A model generated the notes under the pieces. It saw nothing but the letters and a program-made list of their open reading frames with translations. It did not search any database and was not told the DNA's origin. The translations under genes and the position numbers were made by a program. Source: Siphlonurus alternatus (Eukaryota > Arthropoda > Insecta > Ephemeroptera > Siphlonuridae). Taken from it: a DNA stretch of 64,000 nt. How positions within the stretch are numbered: the stretch's first letter is position 1; every line of letters starts with the position of its first letter. The stretch spans positions 19,625,482 to 19,689,481 of the forward strand of contig OX463787.1 in assembly GCA_949825025.1 (NCBI GenBank), read 5' to 3'. This document shows, in pieces, positions 6,366-60,104 of this stretch.

Positions 6366-6369
6366 TAAT

Positions 6370-17248: not shown

Positions 17249-17555
17249 TTTTATTCCTATTTATATAGCGCTTTCAAAATATTTGTCTTCTTATTTATTT
17301 TTCATGCATGTTTTATCTATTTAAATATTATATTGTTTTTTTTTCCGTTTGTTTAGGTATTTTAAAATTTTTATTCGTCAATAAAAATTTATATATATAT
17401 ATGAATTTATTTTTTGTTCTCTATATTTTTTCAAGTTATTGTAATAATTGTGTTCTTCATTTATTTCATATTGTATATCTTACATTTAAATATTTTAATG
17501 AACTCTAATTTTTTTTTTTTTTTTCTCTGAATACAAAATTATTCAAATTTAATTA

Positions 17556-17694
<139 letters not shown>

Positions 17695-17884
17695 GTATTA
17701 TTATTTATTTATTTATTAATATTATTATTATTATTATTTTTTTCTTACCAATATAAATGTACCAAATAAAAATAAATTAAATTAATGAAGTTGTTCTGGT
17801 GTGCTGGATCTTCTCACAAATAGCTGCAGTCAATCTGTAAAAAGATTTAACACATGCCAATTCTGGCATTAGTTCAATAATTTA

Positions 17885-20800
17885 TTATTTATTTAAATTT
17901 TTATACTGCAATGGAAGCCAATCTGTCCTTGAGTAATATGGTTTCATTCTATACACATGTATGGTGTCATCCACTGACCTTCTACCTCTTGTCAATCTAA
18001 CTAAATAAGTAACATCTGAAATCTTTTCTAGCACTTCAAATGGCCCAAGATAATTATTTTGTAGCTTATCTGATTTTTGTATTTGCCTGATGGGGAAGTA
18101 AATTTTAACTTTATCTCCCTTCTTAAATTCCACATGTCGGTGGGTGGCATCATATTGTTGTTTTTGTTTTACTTGTTCATTTGCAATTAATTGTAATGTA
18201 TGTTCCCTCACTGTGAGGTACCTGTCAAACAACTGACCTGCCTCTAGTGTTTCATATGGAGCATCTAAGGTAATATCTGCTGGTAATCTTGCTTCATGTA
18301 AATATAGTGAATAATAAGGTGACATTTTAATAGTCTCTTGTAAACTTATGTTATAACTAAATACTGCTGGGAGTACAAATTCACACCAATCCTTTTGTGT
18401 TGTGGAGCAAAAATGGGAAATAATTTGGGACATTAAGCCATTCTGAGCCTCTGTAAGCCCATTGGCTTTTGGACAGTAACTACAAGTAAAGGAGCTACGT
18501 CCTCCCATTAATCTTACTAATTCAGTAATTACTTTAGAGCGAAATACTTGGCCTCGATCTGAGTGTATAGTAGAAAAGGTACCATATCTGTATATGATGT
18601 TTTCTAATAGGAAGCGAGCAATTTCGTCTACATTAGCAGCGGGGATTGGTTTTGCTTCTACAAATTTACTTGTGTAGCAAATCGCTAAAACAATGTGTTT
18701 GTTGCCACGATTACTTAATGGAAATGGCCCGCAGGTGTCAATTCCCCACATAGTAAATGGGATTGGGGGTGCAGGGATAGGCTGTAAGAGCCCTTGTTGT
18801 GCTTGGGTGGGTCTCTTTTTACTTTGACAATCTTCACACGATTTAACATACGATTTTACATCTGAAAATAAGCCATCCCAATAATATTTCTTATTTATTT
18901 TATTTAAAGTTTTTGTTATGCCAAGATGGCAACCTCCTACAAGTTCATCATGAAAAGAAGTAATTATTTCTTTAATTAAATTTTTGGGAATAACCATTAA
19001 TTTTGTAACGCCATTAGGAGAATAATTTTTCCTATACAGTATACTATTTTCTACTATATAACTTCTAGATTTTCTACGCATGTTTGAAGTGGCTTCGTCT
19101 GGACTTAAAACTGCTGATTTTAGTTCATTTAAATAATCATCATTATCTTGTTCTTGTGCTATATTTATATTGTTTGTAGCCAGAACTGTAATTTCATTTG
19201 CTTCATCAATTTCTTCCTGTGTGGCGTCCCTGGTTGGAAATCTAGATAGAAAATCGCAATCTATATGTAATTTGCCTTTCTTATGGATGACCTTGAACCT
19301 GTATTCTTGTAATTTAATTGACCAGCGGACCAAACGGCTACTTGGGTCGCGTATCGAGTTTAACCATACCAGAGCTGAATTGTCAGTGACCAAAGTAAAT
19401 TCTTTATTATGCAAAAATGGCCTGAAATAATTTGTAGCCCAAACTGCACAAAGAATCTCCTTCTCAGCTGTTGTATATCGTGATTCAGCATCTAAAAGTC
19501 TCCTACTTGCAAAAAATAATGGCCTAATATCTTTACCGTCAATGATATTTAACGTGGAGCCCAAGCCAGTATTTGATGCATCTACGCGCAATTCTAAGGG
19601 TAGGTCATCTCTAAAATGAGCTAATACGGGTGCAGTAATTAATTTTTGTTTCAACTCATCAAAAGCTTTCATTTGTTCGGGTCCAAAATTAAATTTAAAA
19701 TTCTTTTTGAAAAGTTTTGTCAAAGGAGCTGCAAGTTCTGAGAATAAATATATAAATTTTCTAAAAAATGAAAATAATCCATATGCACTCCTTAATTGTT
19801 TAAGAGTTTTGGGGTATGGAATATCCCTAATTGCTGCCAATTTGTCTTCATCCACTGAAATTCCTTGAGCACTAACAATGTGCCCTAATATTTTAATTTT
19901 TGTGTAACCCACTTTAGATTTACTTGCTTTTAATTTAAGCTTAAATTCTCTTAGTCTCTCAAAAACTTTTATTAATTTTTCCCTATGACTGCTATAGTCG
20001 GCAGCACTAATTAACAAATCATCGATGTAACTTAAAACTGTATTATACTTAAGTCCTGCCATGCAGGTATCAATACAACGTTGAAAATAAGCAGGAGATA
20101 TGCTTAGCCCTTGTGGACAAACATTAAATTCAAAAAGTCCCCACTCTGTAACGAATGCAGTCTTGCATTTTGACTCTTCAGCTAGAGGGCCTTGGAAAAA
20201 TCCGCTAAACAGGTCAAAAATAGAGTAAATGCATGTGTTATTAAGGTAAGTGAGCAGGGTATCAATCCTGGGCAATGGATAGCTGTCGAAGCGAACGACG
20301 CCATTTAATTTTCTGAAATCGACCGTTATTCGAGCCTTGTTATCACTTTTACGCACAATTACCACTGGAAAACTGTATGGTGACCTTGAGGGCCTAATAA
20401 TGTCGTTTTGTAACATCTCTTCTAACTGTTCTTTTACCAAATCTTTCTCTTTATGTGACATTCTGTAAGGTGGCAAGTGTATGGGAGTATCTGTTGTTGT
20501 TTCAATCACGAGCTCAGGTAAATTACTTCGTTCTAAATCAGAAAAACTATTAGCAAAACAGTCAGAATATTCTTGTAATAATTTAATTAATTTCTCTTTT
20601 TCTTCCTCTGGTAATTCTGGGTTAACATCTATATTACTTATATCAATACTCTTAATTTTTACTTGGGTGTTTTGTGAAATAGTGCATTGCGTGGTTACCT
20701 CTTTTTCTATACTTGTTGGGGTTGTGCAGTCAGTTCTTAGAAATGGAGACTTTAACGCATGACTATTTTTCTCAGAAGTAGAGAGGGAATCCACTGGATC

Positions 20801-21763
20801 AATACTTTTTAATGCAATAACATTGCCAACAATTGTATCACTATATAAATTTACACCAAAAACTGACATGTTTTCCACCTCTAACTCTTGAAATGAATTC
20901 ATATTAGAGAATACAAATGGTATTATGTAAAGTGAGTATTTCTTACATAAATTTTTATTTGGTTCAAAAAGTAATGATTCATTTTGTAATAAATTGTTCA
21001 CAGAAACTCTAATTTTTTTCTTTTCTCTGGGCAGCAATTTAATTTCGTCTTGTGATTTTACTTTAGTTTTAAATTGTTGTTCAATGTCTAATTTTGGCAT
21101 TGAATTAATATCATATGAACTAATAAAAGGGATAATAAATTTATTTGTCTTTGCTCCCAATTGAACTACTTTGGAATCAAAATCACAAATGACTTTATGA
21201 TGTAATAAAAATTCAGTACCCAATAATAATGGAAAAAGTAATGAATTAACAACAAGTACAGGAACTGCACATTTATATTCTCCAATCTCAATATTTATTA
21301 TTGTATTTCCAATCACTTTTACTTTTTCACTATTTGCACACGACATAAAAATATCGTTTGTATAATTTATTTTAGATTTATCAACAAATTTTGAATCAAT
21401 TGTATTTTTATCAGCTCCAGAATCCAGAATAATCTCTATATTTTTGCCATTTATTTTACCTAAAACTTTAAGAATCGATATGCTTTTATCTTGGATACAC
21501 TTAACAACATGCGGAGTGTCACATTTTCTTTCTATAGAAGATTTGTTACCTTGGAATTTATTTGTTTCAATATTTTTAGTATCTGTGCTCTCTGCATTAT
21601 TTAAATTTTGTGTAATTTTAGTTGGCTTCTTTACTCTTGATTTGTAATTTTTATTTTTAATCTTCTGTTTATTTTTAATATAATTATTACATATATTATT
21701 TGAAGGGCAAGATAATTCTCGATTAATTTGATATTTTTCATTATAAAAATGTTTTGATTTCAT
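17885..21763 (-). CDS. pol: Pol polyprotein: protease, reverse transcriptase, RNase H, integrase
   Basis: The ORF has 1292 codons. The aspartic protease has DSGA at 114-117. RT has FDLFSGFFQ near 516-524 and YIDD at 579-582. RNase H has D728, E769 and D794 in the expected motifs. Integrase has the HHCC zinc finger (H938, H946, C976, C979) and D1009, D1069, E1105. A GPF-containing chromatin-binding-like segment follows near the C-terminus. Order and motifs are those of Ty3/gypsy elements. The first ATG lies 5 nt after the gag stop, but the pol frame is open upstream for at least 80 nt in the -1 frame relative to gag, so a gag-pol fusion by -1 frameshift is likely; reinitiation is the alternative. 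No classical slippery heptamer was obvious next to the stop. Confidence 0.96.
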   Translation of the reverse strand: MKSKHFYNEKYQINRELSCPSNNICNNYIKNKQKIKNKNYKSRVKKPTKITQNLNNAESTDTKNIETNKFQGNKSSIERKCDTPHVVKCIQDKSISILKVLGKINGKNIEIILDSGADKNTIDSKFVDKSKINYTNDIFMSCANSEKVKVIGNTIINIEIGEYKCAVPVLVVNSLLFPLLLGTEFLLHHKVICDFDSKVVQLGAKTNKFIIPFISSYDINSMPKLDIEQQFKTKVKSQDEIKLLPREKKKIRVSVNNLLQNESLLFEPNKNLCKKYSLYIIPFVFSNMNSFQELEVENMSVFGVNLYSDTIVGNVIALKSIDPVDSLSTSEKNSHALKSPFLRTDCTTPTSIEKEVTTQCTISQNTQVKIKSIDISNIDVNPELPEEEKEKLIKLLQEYSDCFANSFSDLERSNLPELVIETTTDTPIHLPPYRMSHKEKDLVKEQLEEMLQNDIIRPSRSPYSFPVVIVRKSDNKARITVDFRKLNGVVRFDSYPLPRIDTLLTYLNNTCIYSIFDLFSGFFQGPLAEESKCKTAFVTEWGLFEFNVCPQGLSISPAYFQRCIDTCMAGLKYNTVLSYIDDLLISAADYSSHREKLIKVFERLREFKLKLKASKSKVGYTKIKILGHIVSAQGISVDEDKLAAIRDIPYPKTLKQLRSAYGLFSFFRKFIYLFSELAAPLTKLFKKNFKFNFGPEQMKAFDELKQKLITAPVLAHFRDDLPLELRVDASNTGLGSTLNIIDGKDIRPLFFASRRLLDAESRYTTAEKEILCAVWATNYFRPFLHNKEFTLVTDNSALVWLNSIRDPSSRLVRWSIKLQEYRFKVIHKKGKLHIDCDFLSRFPTRDATQEEIDEANEITVLATNNINIAQEQDNDDYLNELKSAVLSPDEATSNMRRKSRSYIVENSILYRKNYSPNGVTKLMVIPKNLIKEIITSFHDELVGGCHLGITKTLNKINKKYYWDGLFSDVKSYVKSCEDCQSKKRPTQAQQGLLQPIPAPPIPFTMWGIDTCGPFPLSNRGNKHIVLAICYTSKFVEAKPIPAANVDEIARFLLENIIYRYGTFSTIHSDRGQVFRSKVITELVRLMGGRSSFTCSYCPKANGLTEAQNGLMSQIISHFCSTTQKDWCEFVLPAVFSYNISLQETIKMSPYYSLYLHEARLPADITLDAPYETLEAGQLFDRYLTVREHTLQLIANEQVKQKQQYDATHRHVEFKKGDKVKIYFPIRQIQKSDKLQNNYLGPFEVLEKISDVTYLVRLTRGRRSVDDTIHVYRMKPYYSRTDWLPLQYKNLNK

Positions 21764-21768
21764 GGAAT

Positions 21769-23427
21769 TTACAGCAGCGGTGCCCTGTCGCGCTGCTGTG
21801 GCCTCCCGTTTCCCGACTGAGCTTTATTAACTTTGCATTGGCTTGCGTAATGGCCAACTTTATTGCAGTTAAAACAAATTATTTTACCGTCTGCTGTGCG
21901 TGATGTTCGATCTGGCCTAGGTTCATAACCTGGAAAAAGTGGGCGAGGTTCAGATCTATTATTTTGTCCCTGATTTTGACGCTCATATCTTGGCTGAAAT
22001 GCATTAAATCGAGGACGGCGATCATAATGATTGAATGTATTATTTTCTCTTCTATTACCTAAAAATCTGTTATAATTTTGAGAATTATTGTTTTGATTGC
22101 GCCTATCAAATATTCTCCTATTAAAATTATTAAATTTTGGTCTCTGTGCTGAAAAATCAAATCTTACATTATGTGATTGACCATTATTCTTATTATTTTC
22201 TGAATCATTTTCTTTGATAGTTTGAGTTAAAATTTTAAGCTCATTCATTTGTTCTGCTAATTTTGTCATTGTTTCAGTTGATTGTTTAATAAACTCTGAA
22301 TTTTTATCTCCCTCACCAAAACTATTAGCTAACATAACTTTTCTCGCGTTTTCTAACACCATCTCTGGAGTGTCATTTTTCATTAACATGACTCCTTTTA
22401 TAATTGTTTTTGATAATCCATGTAAAAGATGTCTAGCTTTATCTTCCTGACTCATTGCAGGGTTAACTAATCGACATAATCTAATTATATCTTGGTAAAA
22501 ACTTTCTACCGACTCTCCCTCTTTTTGAGTTCTGTTACGTAGTTTAAATTCCGCACGATCTATTGGTAACTGTGGCTTGAATTCTTTTTGCAGTGTCTCT
22601 TTTAATGAATTATATGTTATCTCCTCCTCTCCCATAGAAGCTTCATAATTTTCTAGCCAGATTGCTGCTGGGCCACTTAAGAAACATGGTAAAAATCTTG
22701 CTTTTTCAGCATCTGTTTTCCATTTATTTACTCTGCACGCTCTCTCAAAGCGAATCAAAAATTCCTCTACGTCATCATCTAAGCTATTTCTAAACTGTCC
22801 GGGCGACATTTTAAAAGTGACATTATCTGGGGATACCGTAGTTACCGGCTCAGTACCCATTGTGGAATTATTCCCTTGTTGTTCCATATCAGGCATGTTT
22901 TGTAAATTATTTAAATTTTCCCCGTTTGGGTGTAAAATATGAGATAAATCAAGATGTTCTAATGTCAATAATGGAGGTGAATTTAAAGGTGTTGAACTTG
23001 TTCTATCATTATTTGGAAGTTCTATAAAAGTTTGAACAAGCTCTGGAGGGGCTAAAAAATTTGAATTTTCTGATGTTTGTGATAAATTATCTAAATTATC
23101 ATTATTTTGTTCGATATTTCTCTCAGAATTGTTATCATTACTTTCTCCCTCTTCTCTCCTCTCTGGATGACCTAAATTATTTTCATGACCTGATTGTACT
23201 CCACTAGCTTCTTCCTGACCACTAGATTCCTCACTTAAACTAGAAAAAGGGTCGGCTGGATGACTCCTTGAACTACGACCTGGGTTCCAGTTTACTTCTA
23301 TTCCCAAATTTTTAGCATTTTCTAATAATTTTTGTGTTTCTTGTGACTGTTGCTCTTTATTAAAAGTCAAATGTTTTAAAAACTTTCTGAAATTATTACC
23401 TTCCTTGTCGTCCGGATTATCCGACAT
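21769..23427 (-). CDS. gag: Gag polyprotein with CCHC zinc knuckle
   Basis: The ORF has 552 codons. An acidic, Asn-rich N-terminal region is followed by a retrotransposon-gag-type capsid region (about 205-365, including the WLENY and ESVESFYQ motifs). An Arg/Asn/Gln-rich nucleocapsid region follows (about 415-510), then one CCHC knuckle, C518-x2-C521-x4-H526-x4-C531. It packages element RNA and forms the particle. It is the first ORF after a roughly 400-nt leader. Several well-studied Drosophila errantiviruses lack a clear CCHC knuckle, so its presence beside an F-type env is a useful lineage marker. Confidence 0.93.
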   Translation of the reverse strand: MSDNPDDKEGNNFRKFLKHLTFNKEQQSQETQKLLENAKNLGIEVNWNPGRSSRSHPADPFSSLSEESSGQEEASGVQSGHENNLGHPERREEGESNDNNSERNIEQNNDNLDNLSQTSENSNFLAPPELVQTFIELPNNDRTSSTPLNSPPLLTLEHLDLSHILHPNGENLNNLQNMPDMEQQGNNSTMGTEPVTTVSPDNVTFKMSPGQFRNSLDDDVEEFLIRFERACRVNKWKTDAEKARFLPCFLSGPAAIWLENYEASMGEEEITYNSLKETLQKEFKPQLPIDRAEFKLRNRTQKEGESVESFYQDIIRLCRLVNPAMSQEDKARHLLHGLSKTIIKGVMLMKNDTPEMVLENARKVMLANSFGEGDKNSEFIKQSTETMTKLAEQMNELKILTQTIKENDSENNKNNGQSHNVRFDFSAQRPKFNNFNRRIFDRRNQNNNSQNYNRFLGNRRENNTFNHYDRRPRFNAFQPRYERQNQGQNNRSEPRPLFPGYEPRPDRTSRTADGKIICFNCNKVGHYASQCKVNKAQSGNGRPQQRDRAPLL

Positions 23428-23814
23428 TACTTATCATTTTTAAAATTTATTTTAATTAATCCTGTGTAACGTGTCGTATGTTCGGTACATCTAATTTATG
23501 TACTATACTAACAGTTTTAATTTTTCTGAGTTTAATTTTAAAAATGTTTCCGGTTTGGACTTGTATGTAAATAGATCTTATTTTGATACCCTCAATTGTG
23601 TGTACTGATATAATGGCTTCAATCATTGTAATTTATTAAAATCTTGTAAATAATAATAAAGACAGAATACTAATGGAATGGCCATTATTAAGCAAAAACA
23701 TGCACAAAACATTTTTCAAATTTAAATGACTTTATTTGGAAATTTTCAAATATAATGTACGTACTCAGAATTTGAAATAAAATTGTAAAATACGGTCAAA
23801 AAAAAATTTTTAAA
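23428..23814 (-). other. Leader between primer site and gag
   Basis: About 390 nt of AT-rich untranslated leader, probably with packaging signals. No competing ORF was noted. Confidence 0.5.
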
Positions 23815-38611: not shown

Positions 38612-39241
38612 TGTTTATGAATTCAAATTCAAATATTTATTCATCTCACTTACAAGACAAGTCAACATAGTACACATGAAAAAATAATAATATAATTATA
38701 TTATTCACGTTTGTAAAAATCGTCAATACTGTACACATTCTTATCAAATAAATGTTTTTTCACTCTCTTCTTAAAAACACTTCATATAATCTCACTTTTT
38801 ATGTCACTTGGTAGCCTATTGAACAAAGATTGGGCATGCACTCTACATATAAGACTTTTTTTATATGCTGGCTGCCGTTCTATGTCGATCTAGCATGAAA
38901 TTGTCTTTGTTTCTGGTAATATAATTATGGGTAAATTTACAATTACTGAAGTATTGAGAATTATTCATTGCAAAAATCAGCACTTTTGAGATTTTTAATG
39001 CCGGTAAAGGCAAAATACCGAGTTCTTTAAATAAATTTTGACAAGGTGTCCTTGGCGGCACATTTGCAAGCATTCTTACTGCCGATTTTTGCAATACAAA
39101 AACTCTTATTGTTAAATACTTTGCAGCATTTCCCCAAATTTCTAACCCATATGACAATATGGAGTGAAAATAAGAATAATAAATATGTTTTAACACGAAT
39201 ACATCAAACAAACTTTTAAGGCGTCTCAATGAAAACTGCAA
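38612..39241 (-). pseudogene. LINE 3' fragment (RT C-terminus and tail)
   Basis: The minus-strand frame at 38861-39241 (about 126 codons) matches the C-terminal region that follows the RT fingers and palm in the two longer LINEs here: a YxHSILSYGLEIWG block, then LQKSAVRML and ELGILPLPAL. A roughly 250-bp 3' region ends in TTTGAATTTGAAT (38612-38627), the same tail type as the LINE ending at 47346. It is severely 5'-truncated and not functional. Confidence 0.75.
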
Positions 39242-39426
39242 TTCATTACACCCGAGTCGAAATATATTTCATATTTTCTTCACTCTTAAACTCTCCTCTC
39301 GTATTTTTTTCTCTTCATGAGAATAAAATATTAGAAACGTTATCTTCATTTCATCCTCACTTTGAGCGTAGAGGAAATAAGATGTGTCTTAGAGGTAAAA
39401 AGATTAGGATTAGACGTGTAAAGGAT

Positions 39427-43757: not shown

Positions 43758-44024
43758 TATAAGACACTCCATTAATCTTCGTGCTATACTTTTGATGTTG
43801 ATCTACATTGCAGTTAATTTAAAGTGTTTTTTCTTTATAGTAAAATATTCTATAAAATAAATGTTGATCGTTTCTGAACATCATTGAAAAGAATAAAGGA
43901 ACATCGACAAATAATCTCGATAATATTTATTTATGAATTATTTATAAACTATTATTTTTTTTGAATCATAATAATGTAAAATAATGTTATTCTAGTTTTC
44001 TCAGTACAAATAGGTCAATGAACT

Positions 44025-46724
44025 ATGATAAAAGTTTTTGATATCAATATGACATCGTATGATAAGAAATTTATTTACAGCCGTTCAATGAACGTTCGTA
44101 TAAATTTGATATCAAATGAATTTGATACTTTAATTAAATCATTCATGAACAACAACAAAAAAAATGACGTAATATTTATAGGTGGTGATACTAATATTAA
44201 TATTTGCATAAATAATTCCGCAAGCAAATCTTATTCAGATCTTTTAGAAACATACAATTTAAGTGTGCTAAATTCAATTGAAACTCATGATAATAAAAAA
44301 TCGTCTACTCTCATTGACCACTTAATATGTAATAAAACAGAATTATTTTCATTGCCTGAAACGGTAATTACAAATTTATCAGATCACAAATATAATACAA
44401 TTTTTTTAAATGCACCGCCACAAAACAATAACTGCAGTTCTTCAAACAGTAAATGTCGCTATAGAACAACACGTGTGTTTGATAAAGCAAGTAAGGATTT
44501 ATTCATGCAATTATTAATGCGAGAAGATTGGAGTGAACTTCGATCGGCTGATGGAGATTCAGAGAAAAAATGGAAAATATTTTTAGATATTTTTATGTAC
44601 CATTTCAATGAAGCTTTTCCAAAAATCAAGAAAAAAATTTATAATAAAAAAACAACCCCTGCATGGATTAAACACCATCCAGAACTTGTATTAGAAAGTC
44701 AGAATTTAAAAAAAATGTTTATTGAAGCTAAATATCATGATTCCTCAATTATGCCTGAATATAAAAAACTATATAAATTACACAACATTAAGGTAATGAA
44801 TGCAATAAAAAATTTAAATGATAAAAAAATTAAGGATTCTGACAATAAAGTAAAAACTGCTTGGGATGTTGTGAAATCTGAAACAAATTATAATCAAAAA
44901 AATAAAAATTCAATTACTGAACTAAACATAAATAATACTATAATCACTAACCCTAATTTAATTTCTAATGAATGTAATAGTTTATTTGTAAATACTCCAA
45001 AAAATTTAGTTACATCAAAATACGGGGAACATAGTCCATCTCAAGTTAACTTGTCTACCCCTCCTCCTCCCACCAATTCTAAAAATATTCCACCTTTTAA
45101 AATTGAAACCATAAACTATTTTGATGTACTAAAAATTATGAAAAGCCTCCCAAATAAAAATGCAGCTGGTCCAGATGATGTACCTTACACTGTTATAAAA
45201 ATTTGTGCTGAACTTATTGCTGTTCCTCTTTCTTTTGTAATTAATCAATCAATTCTAGAAGGTATATTTCCATCATGTTTAAAAATTTCAAAAGTATACC
45301 CCCTTCATAAAAAAGGATGTAAAAATAATATACAAAATTACAGACCTGTTAGTCTGTCATCTGTATTTGCCAAAATTTTTGAAGCTGTAATGGATATGCA
45401 ATTTGCTATTTACGAACAAAATAATAAAATTATATCCCCCACACAACATGGCTTTCAGATTAAAAAATCAACTGAAACTGCTATATTTGAATTTATTAAT
45501 CCAATTTATGATGATTTAGAAAATAAGAAATACTCAGTTGGACTCTTTTTTGACTTTTCAAAAGCGTTTGATTGCCTCCCTCACGACATTTTTATTACCA
45601 AACTTAATGCCATGGGTTGTGATGAGACCAGTTTAAATTTGTTTAAATCCTATCTTAGTGATAGATATCAATATGTTGAAATAAAATCAGAACTAAATGG
45701 AAATGTCAATCATGAATACAAATCCGACCTTCTACCTGTAACCCTTGGGGTCCCTCAGGGTTCCAAATTGGGCCCCCGTATATACAACTTTACCACAAAT
45801 GATTTGGCATCACACCTCATTGATGCTGATGAGATATCACAATTCGCTGATGATACAAATGCAAAGATCTCAGCAAAAACAGTAAAAGATTTAGAACTGA
45901 GAGCAAATAATACTGTACAACAACTTGTAAATTGGTGTAAATGCAACAGACTACTGTTAAATGTAGATAAAACAGCATTCCTCAGATTTCAATTACCAAC
46001 AAGTAAAGAAACAATAAATATTACAGTTAAACTAGATGGGGATATTATCCAAGAAGCAAGTGATACCAAATTTCTTGGGTTGAATATTAATAATACACTA
46101 AATTGGGATGTACATTTAAAAGAAATTTCAAAAAAAATAAATAGAGGCAATTTTTTGTTGTATTCATTAAAAAGAATTGTGTCAGATCCTACATTACTGT
46201 CTGTATATTATGCAAATATATATTCTCATTTAAGCTACTGTATAATAATGTGGGGTAGTGATAATGTTATGTTAAATAGACTGTTTATTCTTCAAAAAAG
46301 GGCTCTTAAAACAATAAAAGGGTTTAAAAAATATGATTCATGTAGAACATATTTTAGGGAACTGAACATGTTAACTTTACCGTGTATTTATATTTACAAA
46401 TGTGCAATGTATAAAAGACTACATGCTGAGTCATACGATCAAGTTTCCGACATTTCTCCATACAATACAAGAAATAAATCGAAGGTAGTAGTAAAAAAAC
46501 ACCAATCTGCTTTTTATAAAAATAATCCATACTACCAAACGCATAAAATTCACGATTTTATACCACAATCATTGCGAGATGAAAGTAGTGATAATGTATT
46601 CAAAAATAAACTGAAAACTATCTTAATAAAAAAAGAGTATTACAATATTAAAGAATTTTATTCAGAGGACACAAAAATAACAGATGGAGATGTAGCAAAC
46701 TGGAACGTAGCTGGCACAGCATAA
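44025..46724 (+). CDS. LINE ORF2: truncated AP-endonuclease plus reverse transcriptase
   Basis: The frame has 899 codons. The first ~25 residues look like flank or chance; the endonuclease homology begins about residue 18 near IYSRS and lacks the N-terminal catalytic third. Endonuclease landmarks GGDTN (53-57) and LSDH (118-121) remain. The RT has NYRPVSLSS, FDFSKAFD, GVPQGSKLGP and FADDTN, in the usual order, followed by a C-terminal Cys/His-poor region. It makes cDNA by target-primed reverse transcription in autonomous relatives. This copy is 5'-truncated and has no ORF1, so it should be inactive alone, although the RT frame is unbroken. It is related to, but clearly distinct from, the LINE at 52818-57647. 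The Jockey/CR1-group assignment is from motifs. Confidence 0.88.
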   Translation: MIKVFDINMTSYDKKFIYSRSMNVRINLISNEFDTLIKSFMNNNKKNDVIFIGGDTNINICINNSASKSYSDLLETYNLSVLNSIETHDNKKSSTLIDHLICNKTELFSLPETVITNLSDHKYNTIFLNAPPQNNNCSSSNSKCRYRTTRVFDKASKDLFMQLLMREDWSELRSADGDSEKKWKIFLDIFMYHFNEAFPKIKKKIYNKKTTPAWIKHHPELVLESQNLKKMFIEAKYHDSSIMPEYKKLYKLHNIKVMNAIKNLNDKKIKDSDNKVKTAWDVVKSETNYNQKNKNSITELNINNTIITNPNLISNECNSLFVNTPKNLVTSKYGEHSPSQVNLSTPPPPTNSKNIPPFKIETINYFDVLKIMKSLPNKNAAGPDDVPYTVIKICAELIAVPLSFVINQSILEGIFPSCLKISKVYPLHKKGCKNNIQNYRPVSLSSVFAKIFEAVMDMQFAIYEQNNKIISPTQHGFQIKKSTETAIFEFINPIYDDLENKKYSVGLFFDFSKAFDCLPHDIFITKLNAMGCDETSLNLFKSYLSDRYQYVEIKSELNGNVNHEYKSDLLPVTLGVPQGSKLGPRIYNFTTNDLASHLIDADEISQFADDTNAKISAKTVKDLELRANNTVQQLVNWCKCNRLLLNVDKTAFLRFQLPTSKETINITVKLDGDIIQEASDTKFLGLNINNTLNWDVHLKEISKKINRGNFLLYSLKRIVSDPTLLSVYYANIYSHLSYCIIMWGSDNVMLNRLFILQKRALKTIKGFKKYDSCRTYFRELNMLTLPCIYIYKCAMYKRLHAESYDQVSDISPYNTRNKSKVVVKKHQSAFYKNNPYYQTHKIHDFIPQSLRDESSDNVFKNKLKTILIKKEYYNIKEFYSEDTKITDGDVANWNVAGTA

Positions 46725-50536: not shown

Positions 50537-52812
50537 CTATTATCAATTTAAATTTTTCAATTATCATAAATTTAGGCTCTCATTTGAAGTCATATTTTTT
50601 TAGCGTGGTTGTACTGAATGTTGCGATGTTATTTCTTCCTCAGGTGATTGTACGAGACTGCCTGAAGTAGCGACATGTTTGTCCTTGCACTCTTTCCCAC
50701 CTTTTCGATTGATATTTTATTTCAACATGCAAAGTATACATGACTTCTTGGATACTTTTTATTTATTATCATCGGAAAAGGAAAAAAAAATATTTAAATA
50801 TTTATAGTTACAATCGAACTAATTAATGTATTATAATAAATTTTATTTTTTTTAAACGGATATTTGTTCGATATTTTACTCCAGTTTTATTTTTAATATT
50901 TTTTTCACAATTAATTTTTATTAACATGATCAACTTGATGTAATATATTATTTGCTGGTATAATTATATAGTTCACTAGTTCAAAAATTGTGACTGCAAC
51001 TTTTGTGCATTATATTAATTTTATTTTAAAATTATTCACAATCCGTTTCAGCAGTGTTTGAAAATAGAGCTGGCAATTCAGATCATCTTGAAACATTTGC
51101 GTTAACCCGTAGTGTACGAAACTCTCTCGTGTGATATTTTACAGCCGGGCAACTTCTGACACATGTGCATGATCACGTGTTTACCATTAGGCCATCGTTC
51201 TTTGAAATTATATAATTGCTTTAATTAACATATTTATCAATGATATCAATAATATTTATAAGAATTCGTAGGGATGATTAGAGGGCATATAAAATGTATC
51301 AAAAATATTTCTTCATTTCAAGTTCCGATAATTTTATTGTTTACGATAAAATCCGTTTTAATGTTCAAAAGGTAGTTTTTCAGAAACGATATTTTTAAAG
51401 TGATACTGGTATAGTTTATTTTTTAATCACCGGCTATACCATTAGCAGTTTTGATGCATGGTATTGCTGATTTTCAAATGTAATATGGCCTGACTATCTT
51501 GTAGCTTAGCTGTAAACGTTGTTATATTTATTTTATTTTTGTTTTTAGTTTACAACAATCTGTAGATTGTTTTGCTCATAATCAATCTAATATACGCAGG
51601 TTTGGATTGATTTAGGTTAGGGTTTGCAGTCCGTGACTTGTAGTCAAGTCATGTAATGAGATTTAAATCACACCTGGTGTGATGGAGAGACCTTGCGGAT
51701 AAACCAGACTTTTAATTAATTGAATTATATTTTGGTAAAAATCGAATTAATATGAAGAGATTAAAAAACAATACTTTTTCTTACATTAAACTTAATATAA
51801 ATGTAATATCATATTATTGTAATATAATATTATTTAATTAAATATAAATTTAAAATACTGAGCTTTCCAGAACCCAAATTTTGTGTTTATGCAGTATCAT
51901 CCTCAGCAAGGTTGTCATGGACTTGAAGATATATTACCTTCACTTATATATTTAGTTGTTGACTTACAGTAATTACGAGGATGGTTTTCAATCTCTCGAA
52001 AATTGCGAAGGAGAGTAGGTGCAATACCGTGAGATTTGCTCTTGCTCCCCCCTCCGCTTGTTTTTGGTGTCTTGTGGGAGTGTAGTGGAGGTTCGGTCGT
52101 TTCCCTAAGTTACCAGCGAAACCGGCCTCCGCTGAGCATAGCTTTAAATGGTTAGGATGGCACGGCTACTGCTTCTCCCACCCAGGGTACAAAATCGTCA
52201 CGATTACCACTATGTGGTCACCCTGGCTTTGGATCATTCAATTGACAAAGAATTGTGACGTACCACCCCCTCCCCTTTAACCATACTAATCCTTATTTTT
52301 GTTTATGTTTAGTTTTTATTATTATTATTTTTCGTTTTATTTATTTTTTATTATGATTTTATGATTTGTTATTTTCATCCTTTATCCATCATCCTTCCAC
52401 CTTAATAGTGTTGGTAAACAACCTTGTTTTGTATGATACTGGGAAGCACGGGAAGTTGTGGTTTTTGGATTTCTTTTTTTTACTAAATCATAATTTACCA
52501 TAAGTGAAAAAAAAATTAAATTTTATTTAATGTTCTGTTGCAAGGAAAAAATATTAATTACTTAAAATTAAGAAAATATTCAGTTAAGAATGAAATTATT
52601 GTTTATTATTTTAAAAATTATACAATATTTAACACATACAACTTTGTCTGGTTTTGAAGCAATGCTTTCTCTCACGTAACTTCTAAGATTGTTGGGTCAG
52701 ATTGCATAATCTTGATAATTAAAACAAGGCGTATGTAGTATAATTATAGAATATGTGCTTTGTTTGAAGCCTTTCACTTTAAAGAATATCGTTTTTACCA
52801 CTATTTTGAAAT
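50537..52812. other. Duplicated spacer, counterpart of 3004-5285
   Basis: No gene. It contains the structured island copy at about 51850-52265. Confidence 0.5.
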
Positions 52813-53043
52813 GATATTTATTTATTTATTTATTTATTTTTATTTTGGAACTTCTTTTTGGTTGTACAAGACAAACATATGTTCAAGTCAAAATTGGACA
52901 AAATACAACATAAAAACATCAAACTTAAACACATTTACATAAGTTATTTAACACTATCAAACACAATCACTGACAATAATAATAAAAACAAAATACAAGC
53001 CAAAGTCACCATTAATACTGATAAATTTTAGTTTATGTGGAAC

Positions 53044-53089
53044 ATATATATATATACATATATATATACATATACATACACATATATAT

Positions 53090-53120
<31 letters not shown>

Positions 53121-53213
53121 TATACATATATACACATATATATACATACACATACACATATACACACACATACATATATGCATATATACACATACATACA
53201 TATATATATATCA
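53044..53213. repeat. (TA/CA)n microsatellite in the LINE 3' UTR
   Basis: A mixed ATATATAC/ACATAC/ACACAC tract of about 170 bp. It creates four spurious Tyr/Ile/His/Thr-rich ORFs on both strands. Confidence 0.95.
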
Positions 53214-53253
53214 GTCAATACAATGTATATGTAAATTTATAATTTTGTTTATT

Positions 53254-56157
53254 TTATAATCCTGATAATACTTTTTCAGACATTTTATTACTCTCAAAAG
53301 CTTTAATAGAGTAAAACTCTTTATTGATCAATACATTCTTTAATTTTGTGCGAAAAAGTTTACTGGTTTTTATTTCTTTCAAACATGCTGGTAAAAATTC
53401 ATAAAATTTTGCTGTTTGATACATTGCACAGTTTTTGAAAAATTGTGTGTTATGTCTTTCAGTAACTACATTCGATTTATTCCTAGTATTATAGTCATGA
53501 TAGCCATCATTCTGAACATAAAAATTTGGATGATTTTTTTTGAATGAGGCACAATTTAAAATATAAATGCAAGGGACAGTTAACATTTTATTAGCCTTAA
53601 AATGTGAAACACACGACTGTCCTTTTGGTATTCTTAAAATCGTTCTAAGTGCTCTCTTTTGCAAAACAAAACATCGATTCAATAGTTCCGATTTACATCC
53701 CCAATTTATTATGCCATATGCCAAATGTGGATAAACATACGCATAATATATGGTTAGCAAGGTTTCATGAGATACATGATTCCTGATTGTATATAACATA
53801 AAATTGGCCGAATTTATCTTCTTACAAATCGCATTTACATGTAAAGACCAATCCAAACTTTCATTAATGTGTAGACCAAGAAACTTAACAGACTCTGCTC
53901 TTTTAATTGTTTTCCCGGCTAATTGCAACAAATAACTATTCAAAGGGATTTGTCTAGGGGAATGAAATTGGATGTATTCGGTTTTAGTTGAATTTAATAT
54001 TAGCTTATTATTTGTACACCATGTATGTACCTCTTCAATAGTAAGTTTAATCTTACGAATTAATTCATCTTCGGCTTCTGCTGTGATTATAGCTGTAATA
54101 TCATCAGCATACTTTACTAATACCGCATTCTTGACATGATCTGATAAGTCATTTGTTCCTGTATTAAACAATGTGGCTGACATTTTTCCTCCTTGAGGAA
54201 TTCCAAGTGTAATCGGTAATTTGTCTGATTTATATGTAATATTTTGGCCGTTAGAATTTGAATTTAATTCAACATATTGTTGTCTGTTAGTTAGATATGA
54301 ATCTAATAGATTACGACTCGAAACTCCTATTCCCATGTTATCAAATTTATTCAATAATACATCTTTATTTAGACTATCAAACGCTTTAGATAAATCAAAA
54401 AATATTGCAACGCAAAATAGTTTATTATCTATTGCCATATAAACGTGGCTTAAAAGATCAAATAGTGCTGTATCAGTAGAACGGTCTTTCAAGAATCCAT
54501 GTTGACAGGGAGCAATTAAATGATTTTCTGTTTGATAATCCGTAATTTGATCGTCTAATGTATTCTCAAATAATTTGCCAAAAACAGATGTATTTGATAT
54601 TGGTCTGTAATTATCAATAATGAAAGTTGGGCCTTTTTTATGAGTTGCATAAATCTTAGAATCCTTTAAACAATCAGGAAATATACCATCTGATATTGAA
54701 TGGTTAATTAAATTAGATAAAGGGACAGACAAAACAGAAGCACAATATTTTACAACAGTATATGGTATTTCGTCTGGGCCAGCTGCATACTTATTAGGAA
54801 GGGATTTCATTCGATTTAAAATATAAATCGGGTCTATCGAACTAAAATTTAATTTCGTTTTACTTTTATCAGAATCGACAATAATTAAAGTATTAGAATA
54901 ATTAAAAGGAAATTTTTCTGTTATTATATTTTCAATTGTCTTGACAAAAAAATTATTAAATAAATTGCAAATTAGTTTGGGGTCTGTAATCGTTACACTA
55001 TTTATACATAATTCATAATTATTCTTATTATTAACATTTGTTTTCTTTGTTTTGCATTCTTTATTAATTATATTCCACGTAGCTTTAATTTTATTATTAG
55101 CTCCTTTTATTTCATGGTCATTCTCTTTAAATTTAGCGGTGGCCATATTTTGTTTATAAGATTTCATTTCTTTTTTATAAGTAGACTCTAAATTTGGGTC
55201 AGTAAATTTTACATCATAGTGTAAGCGTTTTAAAGAAATCCCTTGTTCGTAAAGATGGGGGTTATTGAGTATCCAGGAAGGTTTATTTTTGTTACTTGAA
55301 ATTTTTCTTTTAACAACAGGAAAAGCCTCGTTGAAATGATAAATAAAAATTTCAAGAAATTTTGACCATCTCTCATTTGAATTGAGATCAGGATTTAATA
55401 AATCATTCCATTCTTCACGAATTAATAGGAGCAGAAAATTATCTAAATTGCATTTGTCAAATATTCGTTTATAATAAAATTGTTTTTCTTGTATTTTATC
55501 AATGTTCTTCGAGTTATTTAATGTTATTGTGACTATAGTATAGTTATGGTCCGACAGAGTTGTTTTTTCAGTTTTATAATTAGTATTAATAGCAGATGTA
55601 CTTTTAATAATATTATCAATTAAAGTAGCCGTTTTCATTGTTTCTCTAGTAGCGGAACTATTAACAATTTCCAACTTGTATGAGTCCAGTATATCTTTAT
55701 ATAAAATTACATTTGCATCATCAATAAATAAATTAAGATTTACGTCACCCGCAATAATAAAAAAATCATCATTATTTTTACAGTATTTAATTAATTTTTT
55801 GCATAACATTTCAAATTCTTTTAAGAATGGTTTTATATTATTTTCTGTGTTGTCAAAATTCTGAATTTTTTTCATCACTCTAGATATATTAGGTGGGCGA
55901 TATATAGAAGCAAAATAAATGTTTGTTGTATTGTTAATTACTAATTTCGCTATGCAGCATTCAAAAACTGATTCAATGGATTTTATTTTAATATCATTTA
56001 TATTTGAACCTTTACGAGATAGAATTACTACTCCCCCACATTTTTGAATATCTCTACAGTAATATGAAACTATCATAAAATTTTTAAAATTTATTGTTAT
56101 AATTTCAGATTCATTCAGCCCATGTTCACATAATATAATTATATCACAATCAACCAT
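53254..56157 (-). CDS. LINE ORF2: AP-endonuclease and reverse transcriptase
   Basis: There are 967 codons from the first ATG. The frame is open upstream to 56295, and the endonuclease N-terminal motif (ILQLNLPGLKNKL) lies in this upstream part, so the ATG at 56157 is inside the domain. Endonuclease landmarks are CEHGL, IYRPPN, AGDVNLN and LSDH; RT landmarks are NYRPIS, FDLSKAFD, GIPQGGKM and KYADD. All look intact. The frame overlaps ORF1 by 41 nt at a run of ten A and is +1 (equivalently -2) relative to ORF1. No ATG precedes the domain, so expression probably needs ribosomal or transcriptional slippage, or internal initiation. Jockey/CR1-type group by motifs. Confidence 0.93.
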   Translation of the reverse strand: MVDCDIIILCEHGLNESEIITINFKNFMIVSYYCRDIQKCGGVVILSRKGSNINDIKIKSIESVFECCIAKLVINNTTNIYFASIYRPPNISRVMKKIQNFDNTENNIKPFLKEFEMLCKKLIKYCKNNDDFFIIAGDVNLNLFIDDANVILYKDILDSYKLEIVNSSATRETMKTATLIDNIIKSTSAINTNYKTEKTTLSDHNYTIVTITLNNSKNIDKIQEKQFYYKRIFDKCNLDNFLLLLIREEWNDLLNPDLNSNERWSKFLEIFIYHFNEAFPVVKRKISSNKNKPSWILNNPHLYEQGISLKRLHYDVKFTDPNLESTYKKEMKSYKQNMATAKFKENDHEIKGANNKIKATWNIINKECKTKKTNVNNKNNYELCINSVTITDPKLICNLFNNFFVKTIENIITEKFPFNYSNTLIIVDSDKSKTKLNFSSIDPIYILNRMKSLPNKYAAGPDEIPYTVVKYCASVLSVPLSNLINHSISDGIFPDCLKDSKIYATHKKGPTFIIDNYRPISNTSVFGKLFENTLDDQITDYQTENHLIAPCQHGFLKDRSTDTALFDLLSHVYMAIDNKLFCVAIFFDLSKAFDSLNKDVLLNKFDNMGIGVSSRNLLDSYLTNRQQYVELNSNSNGQNITYKSDKLPITLGIPQGGKMSATLFNTGTNDLSDHVKNAVLVKYADDITAIITAEAEDELIRKIKLTIEEVHTWCTNNKLILNSTKTEYIQFHSPRQIPLNSYLLQLAGKTIKRAESVKFLGLHINESLDWSLHVNAICKKINSANFMLYTIRNHVSHETLLTIYYAYVYPHLAYGIINWGCKSELLNRCFVLQKRALRTILRIPKGQSCVSHFKANKMLTVPCIYILNCASFKKNHPNFYVQNDGYHDYNTRNKSNVVTERHNTQFFKNCAMYQTAKFYEFLPACLKEIKTSKLFRTKLKNVLINKEFYSIKAFESNKMSEKVLSGL

Positions 56158-56254
56158 TTCAAGAAAATACTCAAATTTTGGTAATTTATTTTTTAGGCCT
56201 GGTAAGTTAAGCTGAAGAATTTTAATATTACATGGGGCTGAGTGAACCTGAACA

Positions 56255-57646
56255 TTAAGTTTTTTTTTTGTTGGGCAATTTGGTGGAGATACTGTTTAGT
56301 GTACTGGCACGGAGCCGTGATCTCACAGGGGAAGATTGTGTATCTTCCTGAGAATTTTTAATGGGGGATTTCAATTGAGATGCCAGATTAAAATTATCAA
56401 CATTTGAACTCAAAACATTATCATTAATAGTATCATTTTTACTAATAATGGATGGTGAGACAACAGATGAAATTTCATTAATTGATTTTTCTGAATTAAT
56501 TGCACTTTTCTTAGCAGCGGTTTCATCATTTTTTAATAGATCATTTGTAAATTGGAATTTATTATCTAAAATCGTTAGTAAAAAAGCTTTGAGTCTTGGA
56601 TGTAATGAGTTCAGATCTATAATATCTTGATTCAATTCAAGAGAACATACAGGATCTGGTAAGGGTGGTCCTGATTCAGGCAAACTATTGTTTACCAAAA
56701 CAAGACTTGACTCCTCACTCGGGGCAATACCGTCGTTCGCCGGAGCGAGGCCTGACTCCTCGCCCGGGGTGGTACCGTCGTTCACCGAAACGAGGCCTGA
56801 CTCCTCGCCCGGGGTGGTACCGTCGTTCACCGAAGCGAGGCCTGACTCCTCGCCCGGGGTGGTACCGTCGTTCACCGGAGCAAGGCCTGACTCCTCGCCC
56901 GGGGTGGTACCGTCGTTCACCGAAGCGAGGCCTGACTCCTCGCCCGGGGTGGTACCGTCGTTCACCGAAACGAGGCCTGACTCCTCGCCCGGGGTGGTAC
57001 CGTCGTTCACCGAAGCGAGGCCTGACTCCTCGCCCGGGGTGGTACCGTCGTTCACCGAAGCGAGGCCTGACTCCTCGCCCGGGGTGGTACCGTCGTTCAC
57101 CTGAGCGAGGCCTGACTTCTCGCCCCGGGTATTAGACATCTGCTCCTTCGTGGCTGGCACTGGCAGTCCCTCCACCCTCACTATGTCAGGCGTGACAATT
57201 GAGGGGCGGGTACTCTCTCGCAAGGTAGAGGTCTGGCATTGCCCGGAACTTACAAGGACCGCCAGGTTATTAGAAGGAGGGGCCCTAGCGGTAATGACGT
57301 TTGCTAGAGTAGATTGGGCTGATTCCTCAAAGAGTTCTTTAACAGCTGTTTCATCATCATTACTTGCAACTTTCTTTGCTAATGTCTTCCATCCATAATA
57401 AGCAACAATTTCAATGTCAAGATCTTTGAACACTGAAATAATGTCTTGTTTTATAGTAGACCAGTTGAAACCGTCTCTGCCACATGCTAAACGAGGAATT
57501 GCGAGTTTTTTTATACTTAAAATCTCACAGATATTTCTTAAATTTTTTAATGCAAGTAGTATATTTGAGTGGTCAGGATAGCTGTTATGGACAGATTTAG
57601 TAACTAAGTAGAAAATAAAACTGTCATCTGAAGATAAATATATATT
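56255..57646 (-). CDS. LINE ORF1, 5'-partial: TARG1-like macro domain plus repeat linker
   Basis: The frame is open from the truncation point; an internal ATG lies at 57433. Codons 1-88 (57383-57646) resemble the C-terminal half of TARG1/OARD1 macro domains: FYLVTK, then a helix, IPRLACGRDGFNW, and a terminal strand IEIVAYYG. In human TARG1 the catalytic residues are Lys84 and Asp125; the equivalents here are the Lys at codon 17 (57596-57598) and the Asp at codon 58 (57473-57475). This family removes ADP-ribose from glutamate. A roughly 60-residue linker, ten 15-residue GEESGLASVNDGTTP-type repeats, and a Ser/Asn/Lys-rich tail follow. The N-terminal half of the domain is lost by truncation, so this copy cannot be active. 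No RRM, PHD or CCHC is visible. Confidence 0.82.
   Translation of the reverse strand, partial: NIYLSSDDSFIFYLVTKSVHNSYPDHSNILLALKNLRNICEILSIKKLAIPRLACGRDGFNWSTIKQDIISVFKDLDIEIVAYYGWKTLAKKVASNDDETAVKELFEESAQSTLANVITARAPPSNNLAVLVSSGQCQTSTLRESTRPSIVTPDIVRVEGLPVPATKEQMSNTRGEKSGLAQVNDGTTPGEESGLASVNDGTTPGEESGLASVNDGTTPGEESGLVSVNDGTTPGEESGLASVNDGTTPGEESGLAPVNDGTTPGEESGLASVNDGTTPGEESGLVSVNDGTTPGEESGLAPANDGIAPSEESSLVLVNNSLPESGPPLPDPVCSLELNQDIIDLNSLHPRLKAFLLTILDNKFQFTNDLLKNDETAAKKSAINSEKSINEISSVVSPSIISKNDTINDNVLSSNVDNFNLASQLKSPIKNSQEDTQSSPVRSRLRASTLNSISTKLPNKKKT
56260..56269 (-). promoter_or_regulatory. A10 run at the ORF1/ORF2 overlap, candidate slippage site
   Basis: Ten A on the minus strand, immediately before the ORF1 stop (56255-56257) and within the 41-nt overlap with ORF2. 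A net change of one base in this run joins the two frames. Confidence 0.5.
56685..57125. repeat. 45-bp coding minisatellite in LINE ORF1
   Basis: About ten units: nine near-identical and one degenerate at the 3' end. The GC content is far above the surroundings. The 45-bp period keeps frame, and the array is open in antisense frames too, giving spurious 138- and 156-codon ORFs. Confidence 0.95.
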
Positions 57647-58744
57647 AGATATATTAGCACTGGAACTGTGTAGTCATGGATCCTTCACTCTCCTTTGTTT
57701 TTAAATATTATTCAACATGAATAATTATAAAAATTAATATTATTATTAATGCATAGATCATATTTTAATTATTAATTGATAAGTTATCTAAAATCACGTT
57801 GGTGATACATAATTTATTATGCAATATTTATATATTTCTGAAATACATAGCGTAATAAATTAATTCTCCTTATATATTAATTAAATATATTTTAAACGGA
57901 GTCTGTAAATTGCTAAATCACCCAAATCCACCTTCATAAATCCCTAAATCCGCTAAATCTCTAAATCCCCCAACATCAACGTGACCTCGAAACGTTACCT
58001 CCGCGAGGTCATCGCCCTGAAGACCTCACTTGTCCGGTGAGTTGAGTTCTTTAGTTACAAATAATTTATAATAGACAATAATGGTTGCGTTTTTTTATTT
58101 CATATATTAGAAAATATACATAAAATTGTGCTTTTCTGAATATTTTAAGATTTTTTGGAGTGCGGAAACTAATTAAAAACAAAATAAAAATATCTGAATC
58201 AAGATGGTACACGTGATTGGACAACCATGACATCATCAACAGCCAATCACAACGCAATAAAATGAGTAATACTTACATCACGATTGTCCGATAGGTAATA
58301 CCACCCTATAATTCTTATAATTTTGATATTTATTTAAATTAAGTTCCCGCACTCCAAAAAATATTAAAAAATTCAGAAAAACACAACTTTACGTATATTT
58401 TTTAGTATAAAATTAAAAAATGCAATTATCACCGTCTATTGCATTACAAACATAACGTTTATAAATGTCCTTTTGTTCTCTCAATGCAGGGACAACGTTA
58501 ACTTGGCTGGTTTGTGGCTAAAAACTCGACGTCCTTACTGTTCCTGATGCCACCATGTATCAACTGAGATAGTTTGTCTACTTACCTCATTACCTCATTT
58601 TTCACCGGTACTGTTCGCTAAACCTTATCATCCGTCTCGTTAATTCAATTTGGTTAGGTGAGTTGCCTTTTTTTATATAAATGTTTGATGATCTACATTA
58701 TTATTAAATTAAACAAAATGTAATAAAGTAATGAATGTGATAAA

Positions 58745-60104
58745 GTATCGACCTTCAAAATTTTTATGGTAGAAATAGATAAAAGGTTTAAAATTATGCT
58801 ATTACTGTGATATTTTTTTAGATTTGTTAGAGTTCGGGAACTATTTTTAAAAAATTATTGAAAGTATATAAAAGTGATGTCTCTTGACGTCTCTCCTAAT
58901 AAAAGGATGCGTCCTAAAAGGAGCGTGGGTTAAAAACCAACCTTATATGCAAAAATTTTTAACAATATTTCTCGGACCTTTACAATTCTTCGAAAAACCA
59001 GAGTGGCCTAACTTTGCACCCTCTATCCATTTCTGCAATAAAAAGTTTGAGGTCGATACTATTGTGTTCTCCACTGTAGCACCATTGGTCAGCAGTCACG
59101 TCTGGACTGGCCGCAACTCTCGGTGTGCTCAAGTCGAGAACCACGTGACGTCATCAACGTGGCAGTGACATCACAGCTCGATCGTCGGTCTCGTGGCATC
59201 TTCATCGTGCAGGCAATAAAGGTATGATAAAAGTAGCAGTACCTCCAGTGATTTGCAACTAAAATATTAACATACCGATCTTTTTTTTAATATTGTATTA
59301 TTTTTTTATATTAATCGTATTTTTTTTATCAGAAATTTAAAAGAATTATAATATCTTTGGAGGTTCTTTCCGCTTTTTTTTATAAATATTATAAAAAAAT
59401 AATATTCGATCATACTTTGCATTGTTACGTTGCATAATAATTTTGATATTATCTTTGTATTATATGATGTTAAAGGAAAATAAGCAAAAGAGTGTGGACC
59501 TCAAAATTTTTTATTGCAAAATAGGATGAGGGTTCAAAAATAAAGCACTCTTAATTTATTTATTTAATTTTTTAGAGCTTGGAAAGTATTGCTAAAATAT
59601 TTTACCGAGGTCCGAGGTTGGGTTTGAACCCATGTCCCTTTTAGGTCCTATCCTAAGGCAACAATTTCTTTGTATTTTCAATATTTTTGTTAAAAACAGT
59701 TCCTACACACTAAAAAATCTGAATAAAATCATAGACGCATTATTTTAACCCCACTATCCATTTTTGCAATAAAATATTTGAGTTCAATACTCCATTTTAA
59801 AACACATCGAATAAATATTAATTTAACTGTTGTTTTTAGGACTGACTGTGGACTCCACACACAGGCTGTCAGGACGAGGAAACACCCCACGTGACACCAC
59901 GAGGTGCGCTCCGTGGTCGCTACATGACTCAGCATGTCCTCGTCAGGTAGGGATCATAATGTTTAGTCTGTCCAGGATAGGTTGATCTGACGTCACAATC
60001 TTTTGTCCTCCAATACAATCTTAATGGGAGGGTCAAGTGATTTAAGACCTACTGTATCTTAGATAGACTATACGATTCCAGAGACACTATAGAGATCTCC
60101 GTGT
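58745..60104. other. Segment C counterpart of 6366-8079
   Basis: Includes the gamma foldback copy and the empty TTAA site at 59470-59473. No gene; the small ORFs are conserved with A only through duplication. Confidence 0.5.

Follow-up and report, generated by a model that had tools for sequence, protein, structure and literature searches.

A TARG1-type macro domain in ORF1 of LINE retrotransposons of Siphlonurus alternatus and its possible role as an ADP-ribosyl hydrolase

The locus and the LINE copies of families A and B

The window, by which we mean the whole stretch of DNA analysed here, comprises 64,000 nucleotides of the genome of Siphlonurus alternatus (Ephemeroptera; assembly GCA_949825025.1, contig OX463787.1, positions 19,625,482 to 19,689,481 of the forward strand). 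It holds a LINE insertion of a family referred to here as A, whose ORF1 remnant begins within a macro domain resembling that of human TARG1 and is followed by a long ORF2 (Table 1). The limits of the insertion are set by a paralogous empty site. Positions 3465-6636 and 51001-59000 form a segmental duplication of about 95-96% identity, in which 51001-52820 pairs with 3465-5293 (96.2%) and 57650-59000 with 5288-6636 (95.0%), confirming both edges of an insertion that the first-pass annotation had already described as bounded in this way. A full-length copy found elsewhere in the genome (L023) is 99.73% identical to the window LINE over 4826 bp, from window position 57638 down to 52815. Since this alignment begins at 57638, the window copy is truncated at its 5' side inside ORF1, and the first ~12 codons of the ORF1 frame belong to the flank or to the junction. 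Measured against the open frame, the empty site and the L023 alignment, the coordinates first proposed for the domain were right within a few bases. A possible target-site duplication of a few bases is visible by eye at the window copy. The ORF2 of the window copy differs from that of L023 by one residue (H228N). Pfam gives no endonuclease match in the ORF2 frame of the window copy and no macro domain in its truncated ORF1.

Table 1. Features of the two LINE copies in the window (positions are those of the window)
Feature	Position	Strand	Basis or remark
LINE insertion, family A, 5'-truncated	about 52815..57649	minus	Empty-site paralog and L023 alignment; A-rich tail at the low-coordinate end
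ORF1 remnant	56258..57638	minus	The open frame, 56258-57673 (472 aa between stops), continues into flanking DNA
C-terminal half of a TARG1-type macro domain	57386..57638	minus	ORF1 residues 12-92 against human TARG1 (PDB 4j5q), phmmer, gapless, E 8.6e-10
Lys codon equivalent to TARG1 Lys84	57596..57598	minus	Worked out from the TARG1 alignment and the sequence
Asp codon equivalent to TARG1 Asp125	57473..57475	minus	Worked out from the TARG1 alignment and the sequence
In-frame 45-bp minisatellite in ORF1, 9.4 copies, coding for 15-aa repeats	56708..57130	minus	
ORF2, endonuclease and reverse transcriptase, 1013-aa open frame	53257..56295	minus	RVT_1 E 1.9e-30; overlaps the end of ORF1
Second LINE ORF2, truncated, family E	44022..46721	+	98.0% identical over 886 aa to L068

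The second LINE ORF2 in the window is nearly identical to an ORF2 (L068) that lies downstream of a macro-bearing ORF1 (L060), and therefore belongs to a macro-bearing family as well; tblastn with the ORF1s of family A and of a protein relative (P0001, see below) finds no ORF1 next to it within the window. A further LINE ORF2 fragment, 33% identical to the ORF2 of the family A copy, is located at 38864-39268. On the minus strand, positions 11786-23430 contain long open frames like those of an endogenous retrovirus, labelled by eye as gag-like, pol and env-like; env is followed by two more, 177 and 643 aa long.

The genome (455,680,777 bases, 455.7-Mb, in 102 contigs) was searched with ORF1, giving at least 91 matching rows, with 90 of 440 candidates scored. 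Among the matches listed, 81 rows belong to family A (96-100% identity; counted by eye, including the window copy and two rows that are pieces of one copy) and ten to family B (63% identity). Of the listed family A rows, 52 lie within a 789-aa open frame, and an in-frame stop occurs in one of the 91 rows. Seven of the 91 begin past the macro domain, in frames of 302-406 aa, which is consistent with 5' truncation. Many near-identical family A copies in the same genome carry the complete macro domain, positioned at residues 258-399 of an ORF1 of 778 aa counted from the first Met. Because four full elements share 99.6-99.8% identity with L023 over ~6.0 kb, family A is considered recently mobile; in family B, seven loci share 98.9-99.1% identity with the copy L028 over 4.1-5.8 kb. 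No full-length family member devoid of the macro domain, the kind of copy that the first-pass annotation named as evidence against its reading, was seen; this speaks less strongly for the claim than the count suggests, because the query was ORF1 or the domain itself and such searches favour copies having it.

Eleven copies, all from families A and B, were inspected at their ends. The sequence GGTGGCAGCACC is found near the 5' edge in nine of them, and A-rich 3' tails in all. A shared word as target-site duplication is absent in five copies and measures 6-9 bp in the other six, mostly off the junctions, which makes no convincing case for such duplications. In both families an A-run immediately precedes the ORF1 stop, and ORF2 is read in the +1 frame (window positions 56255-56300; L023; L028) with no Met ahead of the endonuclease core motif, an arrangement from which a programmed ORF1/ORF2 frameshift appears possible.

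Macro-bearing ORF1s in ten LINE families

The macro domain extends well beyond families A and B. Searching the genome with the domain of human TARG1 gave at least 150 rows (150 of 311 candidates scored). From the 150 listed rows, 20 loci were read, together with two further ones (family I, L064/L066; family J, L065), A and B being known separately. At 13 of the 20 loci the domain is followed, on its own strand, by the endonuclease part of a LINE ORF2, as detected by tblastn with the ORF2 of A and B. Three more (L045, L046 and L050) are copies of family H, in which the next frame is a LINE endonuclease (L045, E 2.6e-10), followed by a reverse transcriptase (L063, RVT_1 3.3e-36). At least ten LINE families or subfamilies (A to J) thus have an ORF1 with a macro domain and then a LINE endonuclease; all ten were found with the macro domain or ORF1 as query, so that their share among LINEs is not derivable from this number. 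The reverse transcriptase was found in six of them, through Pfam RVT_1 in A, B, E, H and I and through similarity in C, while D, F, G and J are known from the endonuclease side only.

Pairwise identity unites the ORF2s of A, B, C, E and J in one lineage, that of A being 38-44% identical to those of C, E and J, and tblastn adds D, F and G to it. The ORF2s of H and I are only 26% identical to that of A (E 1e-31 and 8e-13), and three ORF2 lineages are therefore counted, a number that rests on pairwise identity within this genome; H against E gives 29% (E 1.6e-45). C and D are the closest pair, their macro domains being 93% identical and the rest of their ORF1s 66-69%.

What else do these ORF1s contain? 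That of family H combines a PHD finger (Pfam E 1e-5; pygopus PHD structures, E 3.4e-7) with the macro domain. Pfam detects no PHD finger in the ORF1 of A, B, C, E, G or I, and neither an RRM nor a CCHC motif in the seven ORF1s scanned (A, B, C, E, G, H and I). The C-terminal 166 aa of the family H ORF1 (L045, C2:9904159 region) look by eye like an SGNH hydrolase. An SGNH esterase at this position, suggested by its motifs, was rejected: the structure search gave no significant match (best E 1.2) and Pfam no esterase.

Identity, selection and origin of the domain

The domain inside the LINE ORF1 is a macro domain of the TARG1 type. Complete domains match human TARG1 with E values of 2.2e-25 (A), 3.6e-25 (B), 5.3e-37 (H) and 7e-27 for P0001, a 710-aa relative with a complete macro domain that was found by protein search. 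The other families are linked to TARG1 by the genome search started from TARG1, which also recovers A and B, and by pairwise phmmer. The general Pfam Macro profile responds weakly to the longer LINE ORF1s scanned, with E from 1.6e-4 to 0.041 (A 3.4e-4, B 1.6e-4, C 0.041); family B reaches the 22-bit cut-off of the profile, whereas P0001, A, C, E, G, H and I fall below it. TARG1 itself is the more sensitive comparison, complete A and B copies reaching ~1e-25. Protein searches gave no relative other than P0001, the search with the macro domain alone gave no match, and the viral contigs searched contained no relative.

An AlphaFold2 model was made for P0001 only, from an alignment of eight rows. 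Confidence is highest around the macro domain (pLDDT 67-96 by 10-residue block over residues 261-400), and the model is of low confidence outside it (protein mean pLDDT 51.8). Foldseek against the PDB places TARG1 at ranks 1 to 8 (E 2.7e-15 to 4.2e-14; TM-score by target 0.83-0.95 over the eight entries), and DarG ranks after. A fold search had been named in the first-pass annotation as a possible source of counter-evidence, and its best PDB match is TARG1. In the viral library (BFVD) the best match is VP8 of Kadipiro virus, followed by several insect virga-like, negev-like and flavi-like virus proteins.

TARG1 hydrolyses ADP-ribosyl-glutamate and uses Lys84 and Asp125 for this reaction. Equivalents of both residues are present in all 11 LINE macro domains, as read by eye from the alignment. 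The surroundings are less constant. In A, B and P0001 the GAGIA loop of TARG1 is replaced by xRGVA, a change that might affect binding. At the Asp of the TARG1 GDLF motif, an adenine contact, families A, B, G and I as well as P0001 have Asn, and C, D and E have another residue. The change at this Asp was considered as a mark of the LINE domains and dropped, the position varying in host candidates too.

Purifying selection acts more strongly on the macro domain than on the remaining ORF1. Between A and B, pN/pS is 0.249 in the macro domain (bootstrap 0.171-0.339), compared to 0.622 in the N-terminal part, 0.690 in the linker and 0.616 in the C-terminal part; the minisatellite (0.518, 0.222-1.059) has an interval overlapping that of the macro domain. 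The NG86 dN/dS of the same pair, for which synonymous sites are near saturation, is 0.092 in the macro domain, 0.36-0.58 in the N-terminal part, linker, minisatellite and C-terminal part, and 0.077 in ORF2. The less diverged pair C and D (pS 0.35 in the macro domain) gives a pN/pS of 0.098 (0.042-0.176) versus 0.495 and 0.479 in the N- and C-terminal parts, and the macro domain is also lowest in C/E (0.345) and D/E (0.301) versus 0.66-0.81. At the catalytic codons of A and B, Asp differs synonymously (GAC, GAT) and Lys is identical (AAA). The proposal of a TARG1-like macro domain in a LINE ORF1, made initially from the window alone, is in this way borne out by sequence, predicted fold, complete copies and selection. 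A separate observation concerns the 45-bp minisatellite (56708-57130; L023; L028), where pS between A and B is 0.114 versus 0.40-0.71 around it, a likeness that points to recent exchange or homogenisation.

Where does the domain come from? Four of the 20 loci (L043, L044, L052 and L055) have no ORF2 behind the macro domain, L044 having an ORF2 fragment on the opposite strand. These four may be TARG1-like genes of the host. L055 (C3:10610753-10611592), a host-gene candidate, encodes two tandem TARG1-like domains in a 568-aa frame with a Ser/Tyr/Gln-rich repeat tail, and its first domain has lost both catalytic residues. In a tree of 22 rows with midpoint root, 11 LINE domains and five host-candidate domains stand apart from human TARG1 and the prokaryotes with a support of 94/95, just under the star threshold of the program; human TARG1 is the sole eukaryotic row besides LINEs and host candidates, and insect virus domains are not among the rows. 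Ten loci were left out of the tree as same-family copies (L046, L048-L051, L054, L057, L058, L061 and L062). Of seven prokaryotic loci, six entered the identity comparison and four the tree, L042 being excluded for a stop in frame, and a Lactobacillus phage row was used in the identity comparison and left out of the tree. On balance the tree suggests that a TARG1 of the host lineage was captured. A topology in which the LINE rows form one group is not rejected by the AU test (p-AU 0.215), and the tree is compatible with a single capture as well as with several. A bacterial or phage origin appears disfavoured. In their identity to A, B and P0001, TARG1-like proteins of prokaryotes and phage (26-37%) overlap human TARG1 (36-37%), family A being 37% identical to human TARG1 and to L040 alike.

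Possible functions and known relatives

In several LINE lineages, then, a TARG1-type macro domain is the main recognisable folded domain of ORF1, evolves under purifying selection and keeps its catalytic dyad. Why would a LINE carry such an enzyme? Viruses are well known to counter host ADP-ribosylation with macro domains. The most probable reading, at about even chances, is that the ORF1 particle carries an ADP-ribosyl hydrolase which removes host ADP-ribosylation during retrotransposition. The ORF1 protein would coat the element RNA through its low-complexity Gln/Arg-rich arms and short helices, and would thereby bring the hydrolase into the particle. There, the enzyme might strip ADP-ribose that host transferases put on RNA 5' ends, on the ORF proteins or on DNA ends, and its removal during reverse transcription would keep the particle competent. 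We infer RNA coating, catalytic activity, substrate and benefit alike. The nearness by fold of viral macro domains, with Kadipiro virus VP8 first, fits a counter-defence role. Host TARG1 could already provide the activity, given that candidate host paralogs exist. According to the available text of PMC8535693, PARP1 and PARP2 are cofactors that act in human LINE-1 insertion, and loss of either lowers LINE-1 retrotransposition, so that erasing ADP-ribose could also do harm at the nick. The wider reading, that host TARG1 was captured once or several times, spread through several LINE lineages and became a recurrent ORF1 module erasing an ADP-ribosylation defence against the RNA, proteins or cDNA of the element, is tentative and falls somewhat short of even chances. 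If true, ADP-ribosylation would be an anti-transposon defence with a matching counter-defence. Whether ADP-ribosylation restricts or licenses retrotransposition becomes a question testable by catalytic mutants.

Alternatively, the hydrolase could act at the integration site, trimming ADP-ribose made by PARPs from DNA ends, or from PARP itself, at the endonuclease nick and so allowing target-primed reverse transcription or second-strand steps. This main rival to a particle-borne hydrolase draws on the reported action of PARP2 at the LINE-1 nick (PMC8535693, available text) and on the modification of DNA ends by PARP1-3, which TARG1 can reverse (PMC9411070, available text). The +1 ORF2 of A and B with no Met of its own might in addition yield an ORF1-macro-endonuclease-reverse transcriptase fusion by frameshifting, which would place the domain at the nick; both the frameshifting and the presence of the ORF1 protein at the nick are hypothetical here, and we regard the integration-site role as unlikely, at roughly one chance in five.

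Some macro domains bind only. A domain of that kind could read ADP-ribose or PAR and guide the particle to chromatin that is damaged or PARylated, with no need for catalysis, and the pairing of macro domain and PHD finger in family H, the latter of a chromatin reader type, would suit it. Both catalytic residues are nevertheless kept in all 11 LINE domains read, a retention that is not automatic, as the first domain of L055 has lost them, and a pure reader is accordingly given low odds. Slightly lower still are those of a macro fold reused for RNA binding or assembly of the ORF1 protein, unrelated to ADP-ribose: another part than an RRM or CCHC motif must bind RNA in the seven ORF1s scanned, but the conserved dyad and the surrounding TARG1 motifs argue against such reuse. 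That the similarity is accidental, or that a piece of a host gene rides along with no function for the element, is very improbable in view of E values of about 1e-25 to 1e-37, the ten families or subfamilies, and a purifying selection stronger than that on the N- and C-terminal parts of ORF1; a chance match to TARG1 is rejected on the E values, the TARG1-first fold ranking and the TARG1 genome search.

The hydrolase favoured here has several known relatives. Human TARG1/OARD1 (C6orf130; PDB 4j5q, 4j5r and 4j5s) shares the fold, aligns without gaps and has the same Lys and Asp. The LINE domains of A, B and P0001 differ from it by their 36-37% identity, by being embedded in a retrotransposon ORF1, and, in some families, by the changed loop and one adenine-side residue. 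Viral macro domains (alphavirus; Kadipiro virus VP8) offer the analogy of a macro fold put to counter-defence in a parasitic element, but those of alphaviruses rank below TARG1 and DarG among the PDB fold matches of P0001, and the catalytic class of viral macro domains differs from that of TARG1. The DarG macro domain of bacterial DarTG (PDB 5m31 and 5m3i) provides the next-best PDB matches of P0001 after TARG1, with 20-24% identity in the fold alignment; DarG is without the Lys/Asp dyad, the Lys alone being kept (PMC9411070, available text).

Among LINEs, the Jockey-superfamily ORF1 types described in the available text of Metcalfe and Casane (2014, PMC4120745) comprise RRM, CCHC, PHD, coiled coil and esterase. 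The elements studied here resemble these in their two ORFs and in the PHD finger of family H, and differ in having the macro domain as the main recognisable domain. The main text of that survey, which covers the ORF1s of 448 elements, contains no occurrence of "macro" or "ADP". The literature on macro domains or OARD1 and retrotransposons, as far as openly available, yielded no published LINE with a macro domain, and none is described in the available text of PMC7016691 (nimavirus), PMC7159879, PMC5434184 or PMC11377751; Repbase, Dfam and subscription papers lie outside this scope and may hold one. The closest precedent, from the available text of PMC5563155, is the virus-derived RNA helicase in ORF1 or ORF2 of insect LINEs, a case of an acquired enzymatic domain in ORF1 of Jockey LINEs. 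It is a different enzyme of viral origin, whereas the LINE macro domain groups with TARG1-like domains of host candidates and not with those of phages or bacteria. The macro domain would add a type to the classification of LINE ORF1s. For genome annotation, OARD1-like open frames may turn out to be transposon genes, at least 150 TARG1-matching rows being present in this genome.
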